Virus record (IMG/VR): IMGVR_UViG_3300024264_000172
Coordinates: 1-24,034 of that record
From: a virus
Reading direction: 5' to 3' (one strand)
Length of the DNA stretch: 24,034 nucleotides
The notes beneath the pieces were generated by a model. It made no database searches and was not told the origin of the DNA. It was given only the letters and a program-made list of their open reading frames with translations. Position numbers and translations under genes: made by a program. Numbering within the stretch: the first letter of the stretch is position 1; each line of letters begins with the position of its first letter. Of the stretch, positions 2,927-22,000 are shown piece by piece.

Positions 2927-3592
2927 ATGAAAGTAAAATTAGTAAGCTATAGTAAAGCTACAGAAGTATTTGAAGAAGAAGGGTTAACTGACTTACAAGA
3001 GCTAATTGCTTTTTGTGCAAAAGTATCAAACCCTGCGGCACAGATAAACACAGAAACAAGTGAAAGACTTATTAAGTATTTAATTAAACATCAACATTGG
3101 TCGCCTTTAGAGATGGCAAATGTAGTAATGGAGATCGAAACTACTAGAGATATTGCTCATCAAATAGTTAGGCACAGGTCTTTTGCTTTTCAAGAGTTTT
3201 CTCAGAGGTACGCAAATCCTTCAGAAATGGGAGATGTTTTTGTTCCTAGAAAAGCTAGACTACAGGATACTAAAAATAGACAGAATAGCGTTATCACTGA
3301 TGATGTAAACTTACACACAGTATGGGAACAACATCAGCGTAATGTTTGGCACTCTGCTATTACAGCTTATGAGTGGGCTATAGATAATGGTATAGCAAAA
3401 GAACAAGCACGAGCGGTACTACCAGAGGGTAATACTAAAACTAAGCTATATATGAATGGGTCTATACGTAGCTGGGTACACTATATTGAGCTAAGAAGTG
3501 CTAACGGCACACAAAAAGAACACATGGATATAGCACATGCATGCGCTGATGTTATTGCATCTATATTCCCTATAGTAAATAAATTAACATAA
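2927..3592 (+). CDS. thyX: Flavin-dependent thymidylate synthase
   Basis: ThyX converts dUMP to dTMP using methylenetetrahydrofolate, FAD and NADPH, without making dihydrofolate. The protein is 221 aa, normal for the family. The ThyX signature RHR-x7-S is intact: RHRSFAFQEFSQRYA at residues 82-96, with Arg82, His83, Arg84, Ser92 and Arg94. Upstream HWSPLEMANV (~57-66) corresponds to the usual H-x-SP-x-E substrate segment, with Met where many homologues have His. The C-terminal ELRSANGTQKEHMDIA contains the late Arg/Gln/Glu motif. The start is two bases past the exonuclease stop. With NrdB it gives the phage its own thymidylate route, useful for AT-rich DNA. Confidence 0.97.
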   Translation: MKVKLVSYSKATEVFEEEGLTDLQELIAFCAKVSNPAAQINTETSERLIKYLIKHQHWSPLEMANVVMEIETTRDIAHQIVRHRSFAFQEFSQRYANPSEMGDVFVPRKARLQDTKNRQNSVITDDVNLHTVWEQHQRNVWHSAITAYEWAIDNGIAKEQARAVLPEGNTKTKLYMNGSIRSWVHYIELRSANGTQKEHMDIAHACADVIASIFPIVNKLT

Positions 3593-3604: not shown

Positions 3605-3892
3605 ATGGCATTAACACCTCTTCAAGATCGGGTGCTTGTTAGACGAACAGAAACAGAAGAAACTACTTCAGGAGGTATTATAATTCCTGAAAGTGCTAAA
3701 GAAAAACCTGCAGAAGGTATAGTAGTAGCTTGTGGTAAAGGAATAAGAAAAGATAATGGGGAATTAGTACCCTTATCTGTATCTACGGGAGATACTATTT
3801 TGTTTGGTAAGTGGTCAGGCACAGAAGTAACTATTGATGGAGAAGATCTTCTAATAGTAAAAGAGTCTGATATTCTAGGTATATTACATTAA
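3605..3892 (+). CDS. groES: GroES-like co-chaperonin
   Basis: This is a full-length 95-aa GroES. The first strand [10 protein letters not shown] (~5-14) is followed by the mobile loop at ~16-33 with the GroEL-binding tripeptide Ile25-Ile26-Ile27 in [17 protein letters not shown]. The roof hairpin lies around residues 44-60 and the second barrel half has [32 protein letters not shown] good GGAGAAAATATT ribosome binding site precedes ATG 3605. No GroEL is present in the window, so the protein presumably caps the host chaperonin, as T4 Gp31 does, to help fold phage proteins such as the major capsid protein. The sequence is far closer to bacterial GroES than to Gp31, which suggests capture from a host. 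Confidence 0.97.
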
Positions 3893-3903: not shown

Positions 3904-4287
3904 ATGACAGAAAAATCTACTACAGCTAAAGCTACTAATAAACCTAACCCCGTTAAGAAGCCTATACCTGTAAAAAAAGAAGAGGCTATCCCGTCTCCGC
4001 CTAAGCCAGCAAGCTGGCTGAAAGATAACTCAAAAAAAGTAGTTTGGAGTATGGTATCTATACCTAACTGTGATTGGTCACAAAAAGCACTACAATTGCT
4101 AAAAGAACATGGAGAAGAGCATATACACCATCAAACTCATAGTGAGTCTACTGCTCAAGAAGCTATATCAAAAGGGTTGAATTATTCTCCTTGTATTTAT
4201 ATGAATGGAAAACTATTAGGAAGTTATAAAGAGTTAGAAGGTTATTACTCACGAAACTATTTCTCAATGATACGAGAAGCAGTATAA
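3904..4287 (+). CDS. Glutaredoxin-like protein with CxxS active site
   Basis: The product is 127 aa; AAAGGAG precedes ATG 3904. Residues 1-37 are a Lys/Pro/Thr-rich, probably disordered extension. Residues ~44-115 fit a glutaredoxin thioredoxin fold: strand VVWSMVSIPNC, active site C56-D57-W58-S59 followed by a helix, cis-Pro at 96 in YSPCIYMNGK, and the glutathione-site GSYKEL at ~106-111. The second active-site cysteine is replaced by Ser, as in monothiol glutaredoxins. An extra Cys97 directly follows the cis-Pro. Dithiol glutaredoxins reduce RNR, so the partner here could be the NrdA/NrdB pair. With CxxS, glutathione-dependent deglutathionylation is likelier. Last gene of the plus-strand block, ending at a terminator. 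Confidence 0.85.
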   Translation: MTEKSTTAKATNKPNPVKKPIPVKKEEAIPSPPKPASWLKDNSKKVVWSMVSIPNCDWSQKALQLLKEHGEEHIHHQTHSESTAQEAISKGLNYSPCIYMNGKLLGSYKELEGYYSRNYFSMIREAV

Positions 4288-4316
4288 AAAAAAAGAGGGC
4301 TTATGCCCTCTTTTTA
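4286..4316. terminator. Bidirectional terminator between convergent gene blocks
   Basis: GAGGGC (4295-4300) and GCCCTC (4305-4310) pair around a TTAT loop and are extended by A-tract/T-tract pairing (4290-4294 with 4311-4315). A-runs on the left and T-runs on the right give each strand a U-tract after the hairpin. It lies between the last plus gene (stop 4285-4287) and the last minus frame (stop 4319-4321), so it can stop both convergent transcripts. Confidence 0.9.
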
Positions 4317-4318
4317 GT

Positions 4319-4441
4319 TTAATATAATAAAAATGATAGAAAAGGAAAAATACTTTCAACAAAGTCTTGTATTTTAAGCACATACTTTGAGTAGGTTATA
4401 TCTAACCAAGAAGTATCTAACCATACAATAAAAATTACCAT
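4319..4441 (-). CDS. Possible tiny membrane peptide (40 aa from ATG; frame may begin upstream)
   Basis: On the minus strand an ATG at 4441 opens a 40-codon frame with one strongly hydrophobic stretch (MVIFIVWL) and a second near the end (IFPFLSFLLY), joined by WLDTSWLDITYSKYVL. The frame is open upstream to 4483 and reads KKVNITVADLVLF before the ATG. That longer form would need a TTG (4447), ATT or ATA start. The ATA at 4483-4481 overlaps the stop of the preceding gene. No convincing ribosome binding site is seen for any of these. Codon choice (TTA, GTA, AAA) is like the neighbours and the frame fills the space up to the terminator. I cannot assign a function; the end of the lysis block makes a small membrane accessory protein possible. 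Confidence 0.4.
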   Translation of the reverse strand: MVIFIVWLDTSWLDITYSKYVLKIQDFVESIFPFLSFLLY

Positions 4442-4479
4442 AAACAATACTAAGTCTGCTACAGTAATATTTACTTTTT

Positions 4480-4707
4480 TTATTTACTTTTTCCCGATCC
4501 GGTATATAGGCCAAACCATGCAGCCCCCGCACCTACTACTATACTTACTAAACCTGATTGCTCCATAGTAGGATCTTCTATTCCCATGTACCATACAACC
4601 ACTTTATATAATAAGTAAATATAAGTAGTAATAAATAGTCTAGGAAATATTCTCCAAGAATCTACAGCAGTAGCCATATCTATCCATTTTTGATATTTAT
4701 TTTCCAA
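4480..4707 (-). CDS. Holin-like small membrane protein (75 aa, TTG start)
   Basis: The start is TTG at 4707-4705, set by a strong AAGGAG seven bases upstream; no ATG fits that site. The 75-aa product has an amphipathic N-terminus, a first membrane helix at ~27-43 (FITTYIYLLYKVVVWYM), the polar turn GIEDPTMEQ, a second helix at ~52-68 (GLVSIVVGAGAAWFGLY) and the basic tail TGSGKSK. Two helices, small size and a charged C-terminus fit class II holins, as does the position after the spanin genes. No endolysin is in the window to confirm a lysis cassette. Similar turn-plus-GAGAAWFGLYTGSG ends occur in membrane proteins of many phages, usually annotated hypothetical. Confidence 0.72.
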   Translation of the reverse strand: MENKYQKWIDMATAVDSWRIFPRLFITTYIYLLYKVVVWYMGIEDPTMEQSGLVSIVVGAGAAWFGLYTGSGKSK

Positions 4708-4721
4708 TTGTTATCTCCTTT

Positions 4722-5090
4722 TTATTTTTTATCTGTACTAGTTTTTGATTTTGAATATGCCTGAGCACCAAAGAATGCAGCAACTAGTCCGGCAATAGCT
4801 ACAAAATAAGTAGGCGCTATATCTCCTATTAACTGTGCAGCATCTTTTACTCCTAAAAAAGAAGTAGCTAATATTAAGATAGGATACAGTAGCATACCCC
4901 AAAGAGCAAACCAGGCCATAGCTCTTATTTGATCTTCTTTTTTATCTTCGTTTTCTTGCATATTACGTTTATGTTCAAATTCTGCTATTTCTTTTGCACG
5001 AGACATTTCTTCGTCTGTGATTATACCATCTCCATCTGCGTCTAGTTCCGCAAAAATAGAATCAGGTTGCAGTGTTTTTGCAGCTGCCAT
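4722..5090 (-). CDS. EF-hand calcium-binding membrane protein, holin-like
   Basis: The product is 122 aa; AAAGGAG lies upstream of ATG 5090. Residues 17-28 form a canonical 12-residue EF-hand loop DADGDGIITDEE: Asp17, Asp19, Asp21, Gly22, Ile24, Thr25 and Glu28 occupy positions 1, 3, 5, 6, 8, 9 and 12. A charged helix follows (~29-55, MSRAKEIAEFEHKRNMQENE). Two transmembrane helices come next at ~57-77 (AMAWFALWGMLLYPILILAT) and ~92-110 (PTYFVAIAGLVAAFFGAQAY), with a basic tail. The C-terminal hairpin resembles the neighbouring 75-aa protein, suggesting a shared membrane fold. The combination could let Ca2+ affect a membrane or lysis step; that is inference. A single EF-hand often pairs by dimerisation. 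Confidence 0.82.
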   Translation of the reverse strand: MAAAKTLQPDSIFAELDADGDGIITDEEMSRAKEIAEFEHKRNMQENEDKKEDQIRAMAWFALWGMLLYPILILATSFLGVKDAAQLIGDIAPTYFVAIAGLVAAFFGAQAYSKSKTSTDKK

Positions 5091-5109: not shown

Positions 5110-5286
5110 TTATTTATTTCTAATAATTCCGAGAGGACAAGTTTGCCACTCCCATAGCCAGTATTGTCTTGTGTTCCATACTAATTCTGGATGTTGATAT
5201 CTACATACTCTTACTAAGGTTGAAGGAGGTTGATTATCTATAAAAATCATAGTTAGAGTAGTGTAGACCAGTGGCCATATTACCAC
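5110..5286 (-). CDS. Small Trp-rich hypothetical protein (46-58 aa)
   Basis: A minus-strand frame ending at TAA 5112-5110 fills the gap between two larger genes. From the ATG at 5250 it encodes 46 aa beginning MIFIDNQPPSTLVRVCRY and containing QHPELVWNTRQYWLWEWQT. The frame stays open back to GTG 5286, which overlaps the upstream stop by 7 bases and would add VVIWPLVYTTLT. Start is therefore uncertain: GTG 5286, an ATA at 5280 overlapping the stop, or ATG 5250, none with a clear ribosome binding site. Codon usage matches the neighbours and the composition looks protein-like (five Trp in 58 residues). I recognise no domain; the N-terminal hydrophobic stretch could be a membrane anchor. Confidence 0.55.
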   Translation of the reverse strand: MVIWPLVYTTLTMIFIDNQPPSTLVRVCRYQHPELVWNTRQYWLWEWQTCPLGIIRNK

Positions 5287-5762
5287 CAACCAGCGCCAGT
5301 ACCCACTAAAAAAGTAGTTATACCTACTATACCCGCTCCTAGAGCTATTAACCCTATTAAAAGAAGCCCTTCAAAAAAAGCAGCTTTTCTTTCTTGCTGC
5401 TTATAAAGAGTTTCTTCTCTTTCCTTTTTAATTTTTCTACGAAGCTCTACCATCTCTTTCCAAGTACCAAAACCAAATCGTATATTTAACAAGTCTTGAA
5501 GTTGTTTCTCTTGCTCTTCTAGTTTTTTCTTTTGTACTATTATTCCTAAAGCTTCTTCTTCTATTGAACCACCGTTGAATAGTTTACTAAATATTGGTGG
5601 ATTTTTTCGTTGGGATTCTGCTCGATTTAAGTCTGCAGCAGCTCCATACCATTTACCAAGCTGACCTACTACATCTTCTATCTCTCGACCAGCAGCTACT
5701 AGTTTTTTTACTCCATTAAATGCAGCCGTAGCCGCAGTAATAGCCGTTATTGGATCTATCAT
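5280..5762 (-). CDS. Phage coiled-coil protein with C-terminal membrane helix (160 aa)
   Basis: ATG 5762 is preceded by GGAGG at normal distance. The 160-aa product begins MIDPITAITAATAAFNGVKK, then a helical part with DVVGQLGKWYGAAADLNRAE, the KNPPIFSKLF linker, and a long charged coiled-coil (~70-130, rich in KKKLEEQEKQLQ and RRKIKKEREE). It ends in one transmembrane helix at ~133-156 (EGLLLIGLIALGAGIVGITTF). Proteins starting MIDPITA with this layout recur in phage genomes, to my memory always as hypothetical proteins near lysis or tail genes. The position right after the spanin pair suggests a lysis or membrane role. Topology (N-in, C-anchored) is inferred. Confidence 0.78.
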   Translation of the reverse strand: MIDPITAITAATAAFNGVKKLVAAGREIEDVVGQLGKWYGAAADLNRAESQRKNPPIFSKLFNGGSIEEEALGIIVQKKKLEEQEKQLQDLLNIRFGFGTWKEMVELRRKIKKEREETLYKQQERKAAFFEGLLLIGLIALGAGIVGITTFLVGTGAGWW

Positions 5763-5826: not shown

Positions 5827-6177
5827 TTAATCCCCTTCTAATAGTGTTTCATAATAAATTATTATTTCTTTTTGTTGTTTTATATATCTAACAAGATCTT
5901 GAGTATTTAGAGCTAACTTTTCGTAATCTCTAACATCTAGAGCTATAAAAACTACTTCTCCTTCTAAAGATCTCATTTCTGCTAAAAACTGTTCTAAATT
6001 ATTTTCATTTATAACTTTAAAGTTTATAGGATAGGTCTCCACTGCTTTAGGAGACTCTTGAAAAATAATTGGAGTTTTTATCTCTGTCTCAATTACTTCT
6101 ATTTCTCTAGGTATTATACCACAACTAGTCACTAGTAAAAGAGGTAATATCATTGAACAATTCATTAGTCGCATCAT
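5827..6177 (-). CDS. Outer-membrane lipoprotein, o-spanin-like (Rz1 role)
   Basis: The 116-aa product has a short signal peptide, MMRLMNCSMILPLLLVTSC, whose lipobox Val16-Thr17-Ser18-Cys19 marks Cys19 for lipidation. The mature part contains a Pro-containing stretch (IKTPIIFQESPKAVETYP) and a C-terminal helical segment (DLVRYIKQQKEIIIYYE). Its start lies inside the upstream gene in another frame (53-nt overlap), the arrangement of overlapping Rz/Rz1 pairs. O-spanins sit in the outer membrane and contact an inner-membrane i-spanin to fuse the two membranes in the last lysis step. It is longer than lambda Rz1 (60 aa) and not Pro-rich, so the assignment rests on lipobox and gene arrangement. ATG 6174 or 6165 are alternative starts. 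Confidence 0.72.
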   Translation of the reverse strand: MMRLMNCSMILPLLLVTSCGIIPREIEVIETEIKTPIIFQESPKAVETYPINFKVINENNLEQFLAEMRSLEGEVVFIALDVRDYEKLALNTQDLVRYIKQQKEIIIYYETLLEGD

Positions 6178-6478
6178 TTATCTTCTTTTCTAATATTTCT
6201 GGTTTAGACTTTGCTATCTTAGTAAGATCATGTTTAGTAAGTGTCTTTCGTAAACTATCTATAGCAGTTTCTTGTGCTGTTAAAGCTTTTTGTAACTTTG
6301 AATTTTCTTCCACAGAAGTTGAAAAACTTTTTTCCATTTCTAATATGGTCGTTTTTTGACGTTCATAAACTGCTTCTATCTTCACTAGATTCTCTTTTAA
6401 GACGTTATTTTGCCAAAATAAAAAACCTGAAGCACTAAGACTAGCTAACAAAAATCCAAATAAAACTTTTGAAAACAT
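6125..6478 (-). CDS. Inner-membrane coiled-coil protein, i-spanin-like (Rz role)
   Basis: The 117-aa product has an N-terminal signal-anchor helix (~4-22, KVLFGFLLASLSASGFLFW), then an extended coiled-coil (~25-95, for example QKTTILEMEKSF and ENSKLQKALTAQETAIDSLRKTL), and a short polar end. This is the type II topology of i-spanins, with the coiled coil in the periplasm. Its ATG at 6478 overlaps the tail-fibre stop (TAATG), and its end contains the start of the lipoprotein gene in another frame. Pair position and topology together make a two-component spanin the best reading. No endolysin is adjacent, which is unusual but not rare. Confidence 0.75.
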   Translation of the reverse strand: MFSKVLFGFLLASLSASGFLFWQNNVLKENLVKIEAVYERQKTTILEMEKSFSTSVEENSKLQKALTAQETAIDSLRKTLTKHDLTKIAKSKPEILEKKINDATNELFNDITSFTSD

Positions 6479-16023: not shown

Positions 16024-19000
16024 CTACTTTATCTTCTTAATAGTCTTCTTAATAGGACCATTAGTTCTTAAATCTTTAAGTATAACATCTACTACTACCT
16101 TGCCATCTATTATACTAACTTTAGGCTCAGCTTCTACGTCTACTGGAGACCCGTTATTAGTAATATTTACTTCTACATTAGTATCACCTTGAGGTAGTTG
16201 TCCTGTATTATTTATATAGTCTAAAGTATTTACCCCCACATTGTCAACAGATGAATTTCTAATAATATACTCACCGTCCGACAACATAGCCATAATAGAA
16301 TCACTAGTACTAGTACCAGCACCTGAAACCATACCTCCATCAGCAAAAGAAGGATAAGCATTTTGTAGTCTTGTTATTAAACTATTTATATTGCTTGTGC
16401 CTCTGATTCTGTTGTTAAACTGAGAACCTCTATTGAACTGTATAATATTAGGTCGATCATATTCAAACCACGCATCAGAAATAGAGTTAAAGGCTTGAGA
16501 ATGCGTAAAGGATTTTCCATCTCTATTAGCTGCTATATATCTTGTAAGCTCTACTAATACTTTTTTAGCAAAAGTATTATTAGCAAAATTTGCTGTATTC
16601 CAGCTAGCATTACTACCTATTTTTTCTGGACTATAACCTTCTGGATTATTTGTGTTACTTATAATTGATGTAGCAGCAGATAGTGCTGCGTCTCTAATAC
16701 CTAGTAAAGGATTAAATCCATCAAAGAAAAATTCTTTAAGACCAGAAAGAGGATTTTTAGAGCCTGAACCCCCTATTGATTTAAGCATTTGGGCTTCTAC
16801 AGAGTTAATATGTGCTAATTCTGTATCTCCTTTTCTACCTAAGGATGCTATAGACCCTGTAGAGTTAAGCATATCTAATACGTCTCTACCCATACTCTTA
16901 GCAGAAGAAGCTTTTATTACATACTCGCCATTAGACAAGTTAGCACGAACAGAGTCGCTAGTAGAAGTTCCTGGTCCTACTACAGGGCCTCCAGTTGCTA
17001 AACTAACTTCTGTTGCTCCTGAGTATTTATAGCGAGTTTTATTCTTATTTGTATTACTTATTATATCATCTAAGTTATTAGAAAGATGATCTAAATTACC
17101 AGAAATATGAGAGGTTGCATTATCTGCATTAGTTTTTAAATGGCTTGTATCTTGATCTATTGTTTTAAGATATGCACTATTAGTAGCTATACTTTCTAGA
17201 TAGGTAACCATATTTGAAGTGTCTATTTCTATAGCGTCTAATACTCCATCTATAGCAACTAAAGTCTTTCCTTGGTCAGTAAGCTCTGAAGACATACCAG
17301 GTAGATACAATACATATCCTTCAATAGCATTTGCTGTTTTCTCTAAAGTATCCAAATTATCAGAAATATGATCTAGTTTCTCTGCCAAGTCTTTTGCAAT
17401 ACCATCTAAATCATCAGAAATATGATCTAATTTTCCTTCTATACCATCTGTGTGATTTTCTATTTTAGTAAGTTTAGACACATTTTCAGAAGTGTTAGTC
17501 TTAATATCAGAAGTATTAGCTTTAATATCTGCTAAATCTCCTAAAGAGGTAGAAATAGCTTCTAAGTAAGCTGTATCTTCTAATATAGCTGCATGAAAAT
17601 CTGAGTCTGCTTTTGCAATATTTGTAAGTTTTTCGCTAGATACTTTAGTATAACTTTTTATAGTTTCTAACTTACCATAATTAGTAATTAGATAGGAATC
17701 TTGATCATTAACTGCATCTGTTAGAGTAGATAGCTCAGATTCAAACATAGCGCTAACATCTATTTTTACTTTATTAAAGTTAAATAAATCGTTAGCTGTT
17801 ATAGTGCTTTGAGTAGGACTAAAGAAATTTAAACCTGCTAATTCACTTTTAGTGGGTGTAAAGAAAGAAGCCCCTGATTGCTCACTAGCAATAACTTCCC
17901 AGAAATCAGCCCCTGCTTTATCACTCTTAGTTATATTATATACTTGATTAGCTGTTTTATCTAAAGTACCGGATACTTTGAATACGTCAGAAGATTGAAC
18001 AGTAAGCGTGCCATTAACGTCTAGTACATTTTTAGCTTCTGCTATGTATTTAGAGTCAGCTAAGTAACTTAAATCAATAAAGTCTGCACCTTTAAGTTGT
18101 ACTCCTGAAATAGTAAAGAAGTCAGTAGCAGTTTTACTTTCTTTGTCAAGATCGTAAAGATTATTAGCATCTATTTTTTGTAAAGTATTGCTTAATACAA
18201 ACAAAGATGAACCATCTACAGATTGTGATGTAGGATTAAATAAATCAAGAGCGGATACGGGTTCAGGGGCTATAAAGGTAAATAGATCTTTTGCGTCCAT
18301 TTTATCTGCAGGATCTACCTTAAACCAGCTACTCCAATGTAGACTTTCTTTACCTGCATCATCAGGAAGTTTAAATAGTGTTGTATATTCTATATCTGTA
18401 GCTTCTAAGTTAAATAAATCTAAGTAGCTAATATCAACACTATCAATATCAAAACCTGAACCATTCCAGTTATCAAAAATATCACCTGTAGCAAGAATAG
18501 CCTTATTTGCAAGACCTTCTTTAAGCTTGTCTTCATTAATTACTTGGCCTACACTTATTACAGCTTTTGTCCACTCAAAAGCTCCGCTATCGTAATTACT
18601 AAATATGTCAGATAAGCTTAAAGCCATCTTTGAAGTAGGTTTATCAAATATCTCATCCGCTCCTACTTGTATTCTATTATTAGCCTTAACAGTTATAAGT
18701 GTTGACGCTGCAACTGAGTCTGCGGTTATAGAAAATAAAGTACTACCTGTAACTTCACTTTTTTGAATAGTGAATAGTTCTATAGCTGTTTTTGTAGATT
18801 TTGATATTTGTATAAAATCAGTAATATCTTTTTCAACTATCTTAAAGAAGTTTGTATAATCAAAATCTTTAGCAGTTATCTTAAAGAAGGTTGAGTAGTC
18901 TTTTTCTATAGAGTTTATAGAGTATAAATCATCAGCATTTTTTGAACTTTTGTTTATAGTAAATAAAGAATCGGCATCTACTGTAACAGGATCTATATGG

Positions 19001-22000
19001 TCTGTTAAAGCTATTTTATCTTCGGGGTCAAAAAATTGAGAATATTTAACAGCTACCTTAGTTAAGGTAAACCAATCTGTATAGTCTATATCTTTTTTAG
19101 TAGGTAGATTATACCATAAGTTAGCTGTATTGTCTAGCTTAGTAGGTAGATTATACCAAGTAGCTACAGAGTGATCTACTTTAGTAGGCGCTTCAAAAAA
19201 TGTCTGATAGTTAGCGGCAGATTTAGTTATTGTAATCCAATCAAAAATGCCTGTCTCTTCTTTTACTATTTTTAACCATTTATTAAAGTTAGTATCTATC
19301 AAAGTAGGATCATTAAACCAACTATTATAATCAGTGTCTATTAAAGTGGGGGCGTTAAACCATTTATCAAAATCAGTATCTACTGTAGTTATATTAAAGA
19401 AATAGTCTCCACCATTACCAGTAGCTATAGAGGTAACAGATACAGGGGTTAAGTCAAAGAAAAATTCATAATCTACTTCAATAGGATCTACTATATAAAA
19501 TTCATCTATAGCAACAAGCTTAGGTATTACAATATAAAAATAATCAGCGGGTCTAGTTATAGGCTCTTCTACTTCAAATAGCTGACCTGTGAGACCTAGT
19601 ATTCCTGATTGATTTAAACTCGGTAAACCCGTTGTAGAACCCGTAGGTACCGTAGTAGTAGTAGCTCCCCCCGTAGAAGCAGTAGGAGAGGTAAAGGTAG
19701 AAGTAATATTAGCATAAGTAGGCAAGGTGCCTCCTTGTAATATTAACATATCTTCTAAAACAGTTCTTATCTGCTCTAGTATTTGATTAGTGTAGAATAA
19801 ATAACCAGGACTTTGAACTCCTAAACCTTGGGTTAAGATTTGTTGAAGTAAAGAAGTTTGAGTACTTATTTGAGGATTATTAACTGCTCCCGAACCTGTA
19901 ATTGCTTGTGCAGCTATATTAGTTGTAGACCCTGAAGTAGAAACTCCTGATAAAGTTAAAGGATTCTGTAGTAATGCTATAGAATCTAATACAAATTGTT
20001 CAAAGGTTGCATCCATGTCTGCAATATTACTGTTACCCATAGTACCTAGTAATGAAGTTATTGTGTTTTCTAAATTTATAAATTCTGCATTCAAGTCATT
20101 AAATTCTTGTAACGGAACTACGGGAGTTACTGCAGCTATCGATCCATATAGATTTTCAAAAGCAGTTTTGGCAGCGACTATGCCGGTAAAGTTATTTAAT
20201 ATATCATTTAAATCTGAGATACCTCTATAACTTGTATCTACTACATCTATATTTACCTCGTCCGCAGGGTTAGATATTACATCTAAGGTATCTATTATTT
20301 CTTGTATGCCTGTAGCATTTATAGCAGAAACTGCAGTAGTTATGTCTGAAAATACTTGATTAGCAGATTGCATCTCTGCTATAAAAGAAGACAGACTTAA
20401 TGTACTACTATTAACAGCGGTAGTAGAAGCTACTAAATTAGGAGTAAAATTAGCATTTAAAGCTGTAGTGAAATCATCTAAAAGCTGATTAGAAGTATTA
20501 AATGCAGTTCTAGCATCTATAGCATTTTGAAGCAAATCTTGACTTATACCTTGTAAGGTTAAGTCTACTTGTTGTAACCCTGCCGTAGTATTATTAAAGT
20601 TTAGCTCTTCTTCAACTTTTAATAAGTCTAAAGTAGCCTCTTTTAATGCGTCTGTAGATTGCGTTCCTGCAGATATTTGATTATTAATGTCATCTATCTC
20701 TGAAAGTTTTCTACTTATTTTTACAAATTTATCTGCAGAGTCAGGAAGTGTTTGGAGTATGGCTAAGTCTGCTAAGCTATTAGCAAGATTAGTTTGTAGA
20801 GCTGATAAAGATTGAGACGTATTTATATTGCCTAAAGAAGTAATACCTGCTTGAACATCTATTTGAAGTTGTTTTAAGTACTGATCTAAACCTGCATAGC
20901 CCTGATATGTAGGATCTAAGCCTTTTACAATATCATCTATTCTAGATATATGACCATCTAAGTGTCCTCCAGCATCTATAAATGCGTTTTGAGCACTAAA
21001 TAGTACGCCGTATAATGATTCTTCTGCTTCTTTTTGTTGCGCTACAGCTTCTTGATACATGGTCTTAACATCAGCTAATGTAGTTCTATAAGTGGTTACC
21101 AGAGTTTTAAGTAAGTCTTCTAGCTCCTCAGTTATAGAAGTAAAAGAAGAGTGTAAAGTAGTTTTAAAGTTATCAAGATTTGATTCTGCTTCTCTAAAGG
21201 CATTAGACATACCACTAAATAGATCTAAGAACTCCATAAAGGAAGACTGTAAAAAGGCTACTCCTTCTTTGTATGTATCAGTATCTATAGTCTCTCCAAC
21301 TTCTAACTGATAATTTAATTGCTCTAAAGCAGTAGATAGTGCTTGAACACTTGAAGAGCCACTCTTAGATAGAGTAGCAAAATTAGTTAATGTACCTAAG
21401 AAATTAGTATCTAACTCATCATCTATTATTATGCCTGCTGCTTGTATACTACTAACGACAGAAGCACTTAAAGTTCTAGTAAAGTTTCCTGATGATTGTA
21501 CTAAATTATTGTAAAATCCTACTAACCCTTGCTCAAAAGTACCAAAGGCAGAAGAGACTGCTAGTATTTTTCTTACAGCTATTTCTGCTATAGCACCTGT
21601 TTTAAAAGTTGCGTCTGCGATTGAATCTTGAGTATCTCTAATTATTCTAAGCTGCTCATCAGATGAATTTTTAATTAAATCTATTCTTTCTTTTTCTAGT
21701 CTTTTATTAAGTCTAACTTGTACTGTAGCAGCGTCTATAGTATCTATAAACCCATCGGTAACTGCATCTGTCATAGTATTCATACCGTCTTCAAATGCAT
21801 ACTGAACAGATCTTATGGAGCTTATAATACCTGTAGGGTCCAAAGTCATATCTTGAAGCTCTAAGAAGAAAGAAGAGTACTCATCTAAAGATGCTAAGGC
21901 ATTGTCAAAATCTGAAGTAACATCGTCTAATATAGATCCATATTCATTACCAAATATAACTCCTTGAGATAGCGCTATATTCATTTGACTTATCACAGCT

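Follow-up and report, generated by a model that had tools for sequence, protein, structure and literature searches.

A gene on the minus strand of the window (the whole 24,034-nucleotide stretch of viral DNA analyzed here, positions 1 to 24,034 of IMG/VR record IMGVR_UViG_3300024264_000172) encodes a protein, MAAAKTLQPDSIFAELDADGDGIITDEEMSRAKEIAEFEHKRNMQENEDKKEDQIRAMAWFALWGMLLYPILILATSFLGVKDAAQLIGDIAPTYFVAIAGLVAAFFGAQAYSKSKTSTDKK, in which a canonical EF-hand is joined to a hairpin of two transmembrane (TM) helices, and which belongs to a large and essentially unannotated phage family. We consider it probable that this is a late lysis protein of the cytoplasmic membrane: a hairpin that resembles the class II holins and either is the holin itself or shares that task with a second holin-like protein, with the EF-hand module on its cytoplasmic N-terminus. 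A sequence-only reading of the window had proposed both the fusion and the link to lysis. The first was confirmed by translation, by conservation of the loop across the family and by the helices of an AlphaFold2 model, and the second was partly supported by the lysis cassettes in which close and distant relatives of the hairpin sit.

The late operon of the window runs on the minus strand from tail genes through Rz, an Rz1-like gene, a gene for a 160-residue protein, the EF hairpin gene and a gene for a 75-residue protein to a terminator (Table 1). The spanin pair, which the sequence-only reading had placed beside the hairpin, does lie upstream, at about 0.7–1.4 kb, but the gene for the 160-residue protein intervenes. 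The second two-helix protein that it had noted lies directly downstream, but is unrelated in sequence and was rejected as a homologue of the EF hairpin (hhalign 0.5%). Homologues of this 75-residue protein occur in 361 phage records, mostly from Vibrio phages including KVP40 (KVP40.0094), with no annotated function among the matches listed. On its 3′ side, a short membrane-protein frame (about 4320–4480, minus strand) is open in three loci, L002, L006 and L007; its ATG is absent in the latter two, where it may have another start or be reached by coupling or frameshifting from the upstream gene.

Table 1. Positions in the window of the EF-hand hairpin gene, its protein features and its neighbors in the late operon.
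Feature	Position	Strand	Basis
Terminator-like hairpin, bidirectional, at end of late operon	4290..4315	.	One detected per strand (shuffling expectation 1.2)
75-aa two-TM protein, TTG start	4480..4707	-	PHROG 10198; not homologous to EF hairpin
Hairpin protein with EF-hand and two TMs, 122 aa, ATG start	4722..5090	-	ORF translation, family searches
TM helix 2, roughly aa 90-112, with Lys-rich tail C-terminal to it	4755..4823	-	
TM helix 1, roughly aa 57-78; one helix with EF exit helix in AlphaFold2 model	4857..4922	-	
EF-hand loop DADGDGIITDEE, aa 17-28	5007..5042	-	D1, G6, E12 in all 199 unique members
160-aa protein, coiled coil + C-terminal TM	5280..5762	-	PHROG 32327 (function not annotated)
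Rz1-like outer spanin, lipobox LVTSC, overlaps Rz gene	5827..6177	-	PHROG 812 Rz-like spanin, E=8e-14
Rz-like inner spanin	6125..6478	-	PHROG 739 Rz-like spanin, E=2e-12

The loop of the window protein, D-A-D-G-D-G-I-I-T-D-E-E, satisfies every position of the 12-residue EF pattern D-x-[DNS]-x-[DENSTG]-G-x-[ILV]-x-x-x-E. Among the window's six-frame ORFs of 50 residues or more it is the one PS00018-type loop, with 0.045 expected by chance per shuffled set of these ORFs, and shuffling the protein itself produced such a loop in 87 of 200,000 trials. The profile of the family matches the EF-hands of calmodulin (E=5e-11), and Pfam EF-hand_5 matches 30 of 44 family members. Taken alone, the window protein matches Pfam EF-hand_1 with E=2.6e-4 and 20.8 bits, under the curated cut-off of 25.4, as might be seen if the loop were a chance run of acidic residues with no metal function; the family-wide conservation described next, together with the shuffling expectation, led us to exclude this explanation, which we regard as extremely improbable.

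The 10 phage records from a tblastn search with the EF hairpin were extended, through queries of greater divergence, to phages of Sinorhizobium and Stenotrophomonas and to additional Roseobacter phages. IMG/VR scans with four queries found at least 595, at least 591, 48 and 276 relatives; the first two counts run against the earlier claim that EF-hands are rare in phage proteins. Up to 80 relatives per query were taken on, giving 294 family ORFs in groups named by query (A, the window; B, HTVC008M; C, CRP-345; D, DC31). The search patterns of the window query contained no loop residues; because one pattern of each other query touches the loop, sampling of those three branches is slightly biased. 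The strict EF loop was found in 293 of the 294 ORFs, the exception being truncated at a contig end, and is intact in 293/293 members complete at the N-terminus. Across the 199 unique members, D1, G6 and E12 never vary, positions 3 and 5 are only D or N, and position 8 is only V, I or L. The three fixed positions are also the only invariant columns in an alignment of 44 sequences, many of them 26–45% identical to the window protein. In close relatives, the loop codons carry 4–8 synonymous vs. 0–2 non-synonymous changes, with replacements confined to the non-ligand positions 2 and 7, so that change at the ligand codons is synonymous only. This pattern points to strong purifying selection on the loop and is the pattern expected of a functional metal site. 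Glutamate at EF position 12 is a bidentate Ca2+ ligand, and its invariance suits Ca2+ better than a Mg2+-only site; a lone, unpaired loop may nevertheless be structural or Mg2+-binding. Isolates with a family member infect SAR11, OM43, Roseobacter-lineage and Limnohabitans bacteria. Six hits fell in bacterial metagenome bins and may be phage contigs.

An AlphaFold2 model built from the 44 family sequences, of moderate confidence (mean pLDDT 75, pTM 0.42), has one helix that begins at the end of the EF loop and takes in TM1 (residues 26–78) and a second at residues 82–119, so that loop and membrane hairpin are predicted to be joined by continuous helix. The canonical 12-residue loop with all its ligand positions is shared with the calmodulin-type EF-hands, from which the phage protein differs in its single unpaired loop, an entering helix of only three residues and an exit helix that leads into the membrane; with one loop per chain, EF-hand pairing would need oligomerization. 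A Foldseek search of the model against the PDB gave no significant match, and a search of BFVD returned one close, unnamed relative only. Lysine plus arginine average 2.4 on the N-terminal side of TM1 and 2.6 on the C-terminal side of TM2, against 0.8 between the helices, and relatives that have no EF-hand carry a strongly basic RWKNRRRM stretch ahead of TM1. From this charge pattern we predict an N-in/C-in topology and therefore a cytoplasmic EF-hand, which is one of the two sides that the sequence-only reading had named. The small size and two-helix architecture of the window protein match those of class II holins.

Gene neighborhoods of the relatives argue for a role in lysis most clearly in groups D and C. 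The order in group D is EF gene, Rz-like spanin and M15 endolysin; a spanin or endolysin lies within three genes in 41 of the 43 loci with complete flanks, and the next gene begins within 20 bp in 41/41, with a median overlap of 4 bp. In group C the EF gene is followed by a 3TM-holin-like or spanin-like gene and then an endolysin, and a lysis gene is found within three genes in 14/16 loci. The EF gene immediately precedes the endolysin in CRP-1 and CRP-9, and CRP-810 has the order EF gene, named holin (PHROG 3427), GH108 endolysin. Since the endolysins of D and C cassettes have no N-terminal hydrophobic export segment, they would need a true holin.

These same cassettes raise the alternative that the hairpin regulates lysis and does not form the hole, acting as an antiholin or timing partner of a separate holin (the 3TM protein, the 160-residue protein or an XhlA-like one), with its cytoplasmic EF-hand as the docking site for a coiled-coil partner. 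A 3TM holin-like gene lies near the EF gene in 12/16 group C loci, and the adjoining 3TM holin already encoded in some of these cassettes, such as the PHROG-named holin that is the next gene in CRP-810, speaks against the EF hairpin as the holin. The gene for the 160-residue coiled-coil/TM protein accompanies the EF gene in 40/43 loci of group D, 11/16 of group C and 6/35 of group A. In mycobacteriophage F1, moreover, lysis requires two proteins, one with two TMDs in N-in/C-in orientation and one with a single TMD (PMC13056207). On the other side, an EF-less relative of the hairpin in phage DC33 sits in a cassette with no other recognized multi-TM protein, and the 160-residue gene turns up as well in roseophages that yielded no EF protein, for which reason we rejected it as an EF-specific partner. 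We hold a purely regulatory role to be unlikely, if still to be reckoned with. In the several roseophages that have it, the 160-residue gene lies in varied late-gene contexts.

The remaining two groups fit the lysis reading less well. Recognized lysis genes are nearby in 15/35 group A loci and in 1/26 of group B. In group A a SleB endolysin gene is often present on the opposite strand, some EF genes adjoin a topoisomerase gene, and in some genomes the location is scattered. In the T4-like phages HTVC008M, Melnitz and phiM12 the EF gene is flanked by gp51 and the tape measure gene, a slot occupied in DLP6 by an EF-less hairpin, and the gap to the next gene is at most 20 bp in 55/60 group B loci. 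Conservation of this slot in four divergent T4-like phages, and the tight coupling, would suit a tail or virion-assembly protein: a membrane anchor that acts together with the tape measure or the baseplate hub, or part of a virion DNA-entry channel that uses Ca2+ for injection. In cyanophage S-SM1 and Pseudomonas phage pf16, however, gp51 is followed by a large (presumed tape-measure) gene with nothing between, so the EF hairpin is no essential part of the hub, and three other branches lie in lysis cassettes instead. A search for virion proteomics of family members yielded nothing usable. Given the gp51–tape measure position, the T4-like relatives may have a tail role; as an explanation of the family it is quite improbable. 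Small two-TM proteins with a role in superinfection exclusion are also known, and a protein of the T4 Imm type, modulating the host membrane independently of lysis, would be consistent with the scattered location in group A and with one weak PHROG match, to the "moron" membrane protein phrog_3996 (E=0.0017). The late-operon position, the tight coupling of the group D gene to Rz and endolysin genes, and the lysis cassettes of the EF-less branch make such a role very unlikely.

That branch bears on what the EF-hand contributes. The hairpin core recurs in DC33 and cta1H496 from about DRWKNRRRMAW onward (PHROG 22774, function not annotated), in the same slot ahead of Rz and endolysin, overlapped or followed by Rz/Rz1 and endolysin genes; these proteins differ from the EF family in having neither the EF-hand nor the linker helix. 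Comparison of the profiles of the EF family and the EF-less branch gave an hhalign probability of 97%. In a set of 53 unique members, drawn from a viral-contig scan plus DC33, cta1H496 and DLP6, none has an EF loop (0/53), and in 45/53 a spanin or endolysin gene lies no more than 2.5 kb away; the EF-hand is therefore a separate module, kept whole or missing altogether, on a hairpin associated with lysis. Homologues without the acidic loop residues, which the sequence-only reading had held to count against it, are absent from the direct family, and it is the whole module that the sister branch lacks. Ca2+ is for this reason not essential to the hairpin, which argues that it is a modulator and no requirement. 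In a tree of the hairpin core, from a short alignment and poorly resolved, EF-bearing and EF-less members interleave. Limnohabitans strain DCL3 is host to both DC31, with the EF-hand (hairpin at 5998–6336 of L086), and DC33, without it (3989–4306 of L301), and so offers a ready natural comparison of EF present vs. absent.

No endolysin was recognized in the 24-kb window. On a 75.8-kb contig of the same phage (L003, with an identical EF protein), a SleB-type hydrolase, here the putative endolysin, lies about 31 kb from the EF gene and starts with a signal-peptide-like segment. If it is the endolysin it would be self-exported, and the membrane protein would need only to depolarize the membrane, as a pinholin does. 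A Phage_lysozyme (PF00959) was considered as the endolysin of window-like phages and none was found; the SleB-type hydrolase is present instead.

Among known systems, the class II holins and pinholins, such as S of lambdoid phage 21, are alike in small size, two TM helices, predicted N-in/C-in topology and position in late lysis cassettes. The EF hairpin, a putative holin, differs from them in having no detectable sequence relationship to them and in its N-terminal EF-hand and long linker helix. Like mycobacteriophage F1, whose lysis cassette pairs a two-TMD N-in/C-in protein with a one-TMD partner (LysF1a and LysF1b; PMC13056207), the window has a hairpin and the 160-residue coiled-coil/TM protein; LysF1a and LysF1b act on mycobacteria, and the likeness is one of arrangement. 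Matches to holin families among the 44 sequences were isolated and weak (PF07332 in 2/44, phrog_565 in 1/44), with none significant. Because of this, and because we only infer hole formation and a holin or co-holin function, the family is not filed under any holin family; that it works like a class II holin is our best reading. Among the PHROG, Pfam and open-access literature records retrieved, none is of an EF-hand holin. The paper on Melnitz names no holin and proposes a curli pore (PMC9004378); Melnitz carries the EF hairpin, which is a holin candidate for this phage.

EF-hands normally work in pairs, and a lysis hairpin with one loop per chain could exploit this. As long as the membrane holds, Ca2+ in the cytosol would be too low to fill a lone EF loop, and hairpins would build up harmlessly. 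A first leakage or depolarization would then admit Ca2+, which would fill the loops on neighboring subunits and let them pair, and the stiff helix from EF-hand to TM1 would pass this pairing on as lateral clustering and opening, giving an abrupt trigger. Such Ca2+-driven pairing and gating is speculative, and we put it forward as a tentative possibility. The wider proposition is more doubtful still: a widespread holin-like family of aquatic phages with a cytoplasmic EF-hand as Ca2+ sensor, in which a leak leads through inter-subunit pairing to abrupt, one-step lysis with Ca2+ influx as the trigger. The earlier argument from the Ca2+ content of seawater is weakened by the freshwater Limnohabitans phage DC31, in whose branch the loop is equally conserved, and is unnecessary for the same reason, as any outside-in Ca2+ gradient would serve. 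What triggers holins at a set time is a long-standing open question, to which a holin-like hairpin with a strictly conserved Ca2+ motif would bring a concrete, mutable trigger, tying lysis to an ion far more concentrated outside the cell than inside. The family is also common, and occurs in isolates on hosts in which lysis is poorly understood.

Elsewhere in the window, the plus-strand gene at 3605–3892, which we take by eye from its translation to be a phage-encoded GroES-type co-chaperonin, lies between a gene that is presumably ThyX (2927–3592, also by eye) and a glutaredoxin-like gene (3904–4287, Pfam E=6.5e-4). The tape measure protein, of 2651 residues, contains degenerate short repeats at about 18400–19900 on the minus strand, e.g., PTLIDTDYNSWFN and PTLIDTNFNKWLK.
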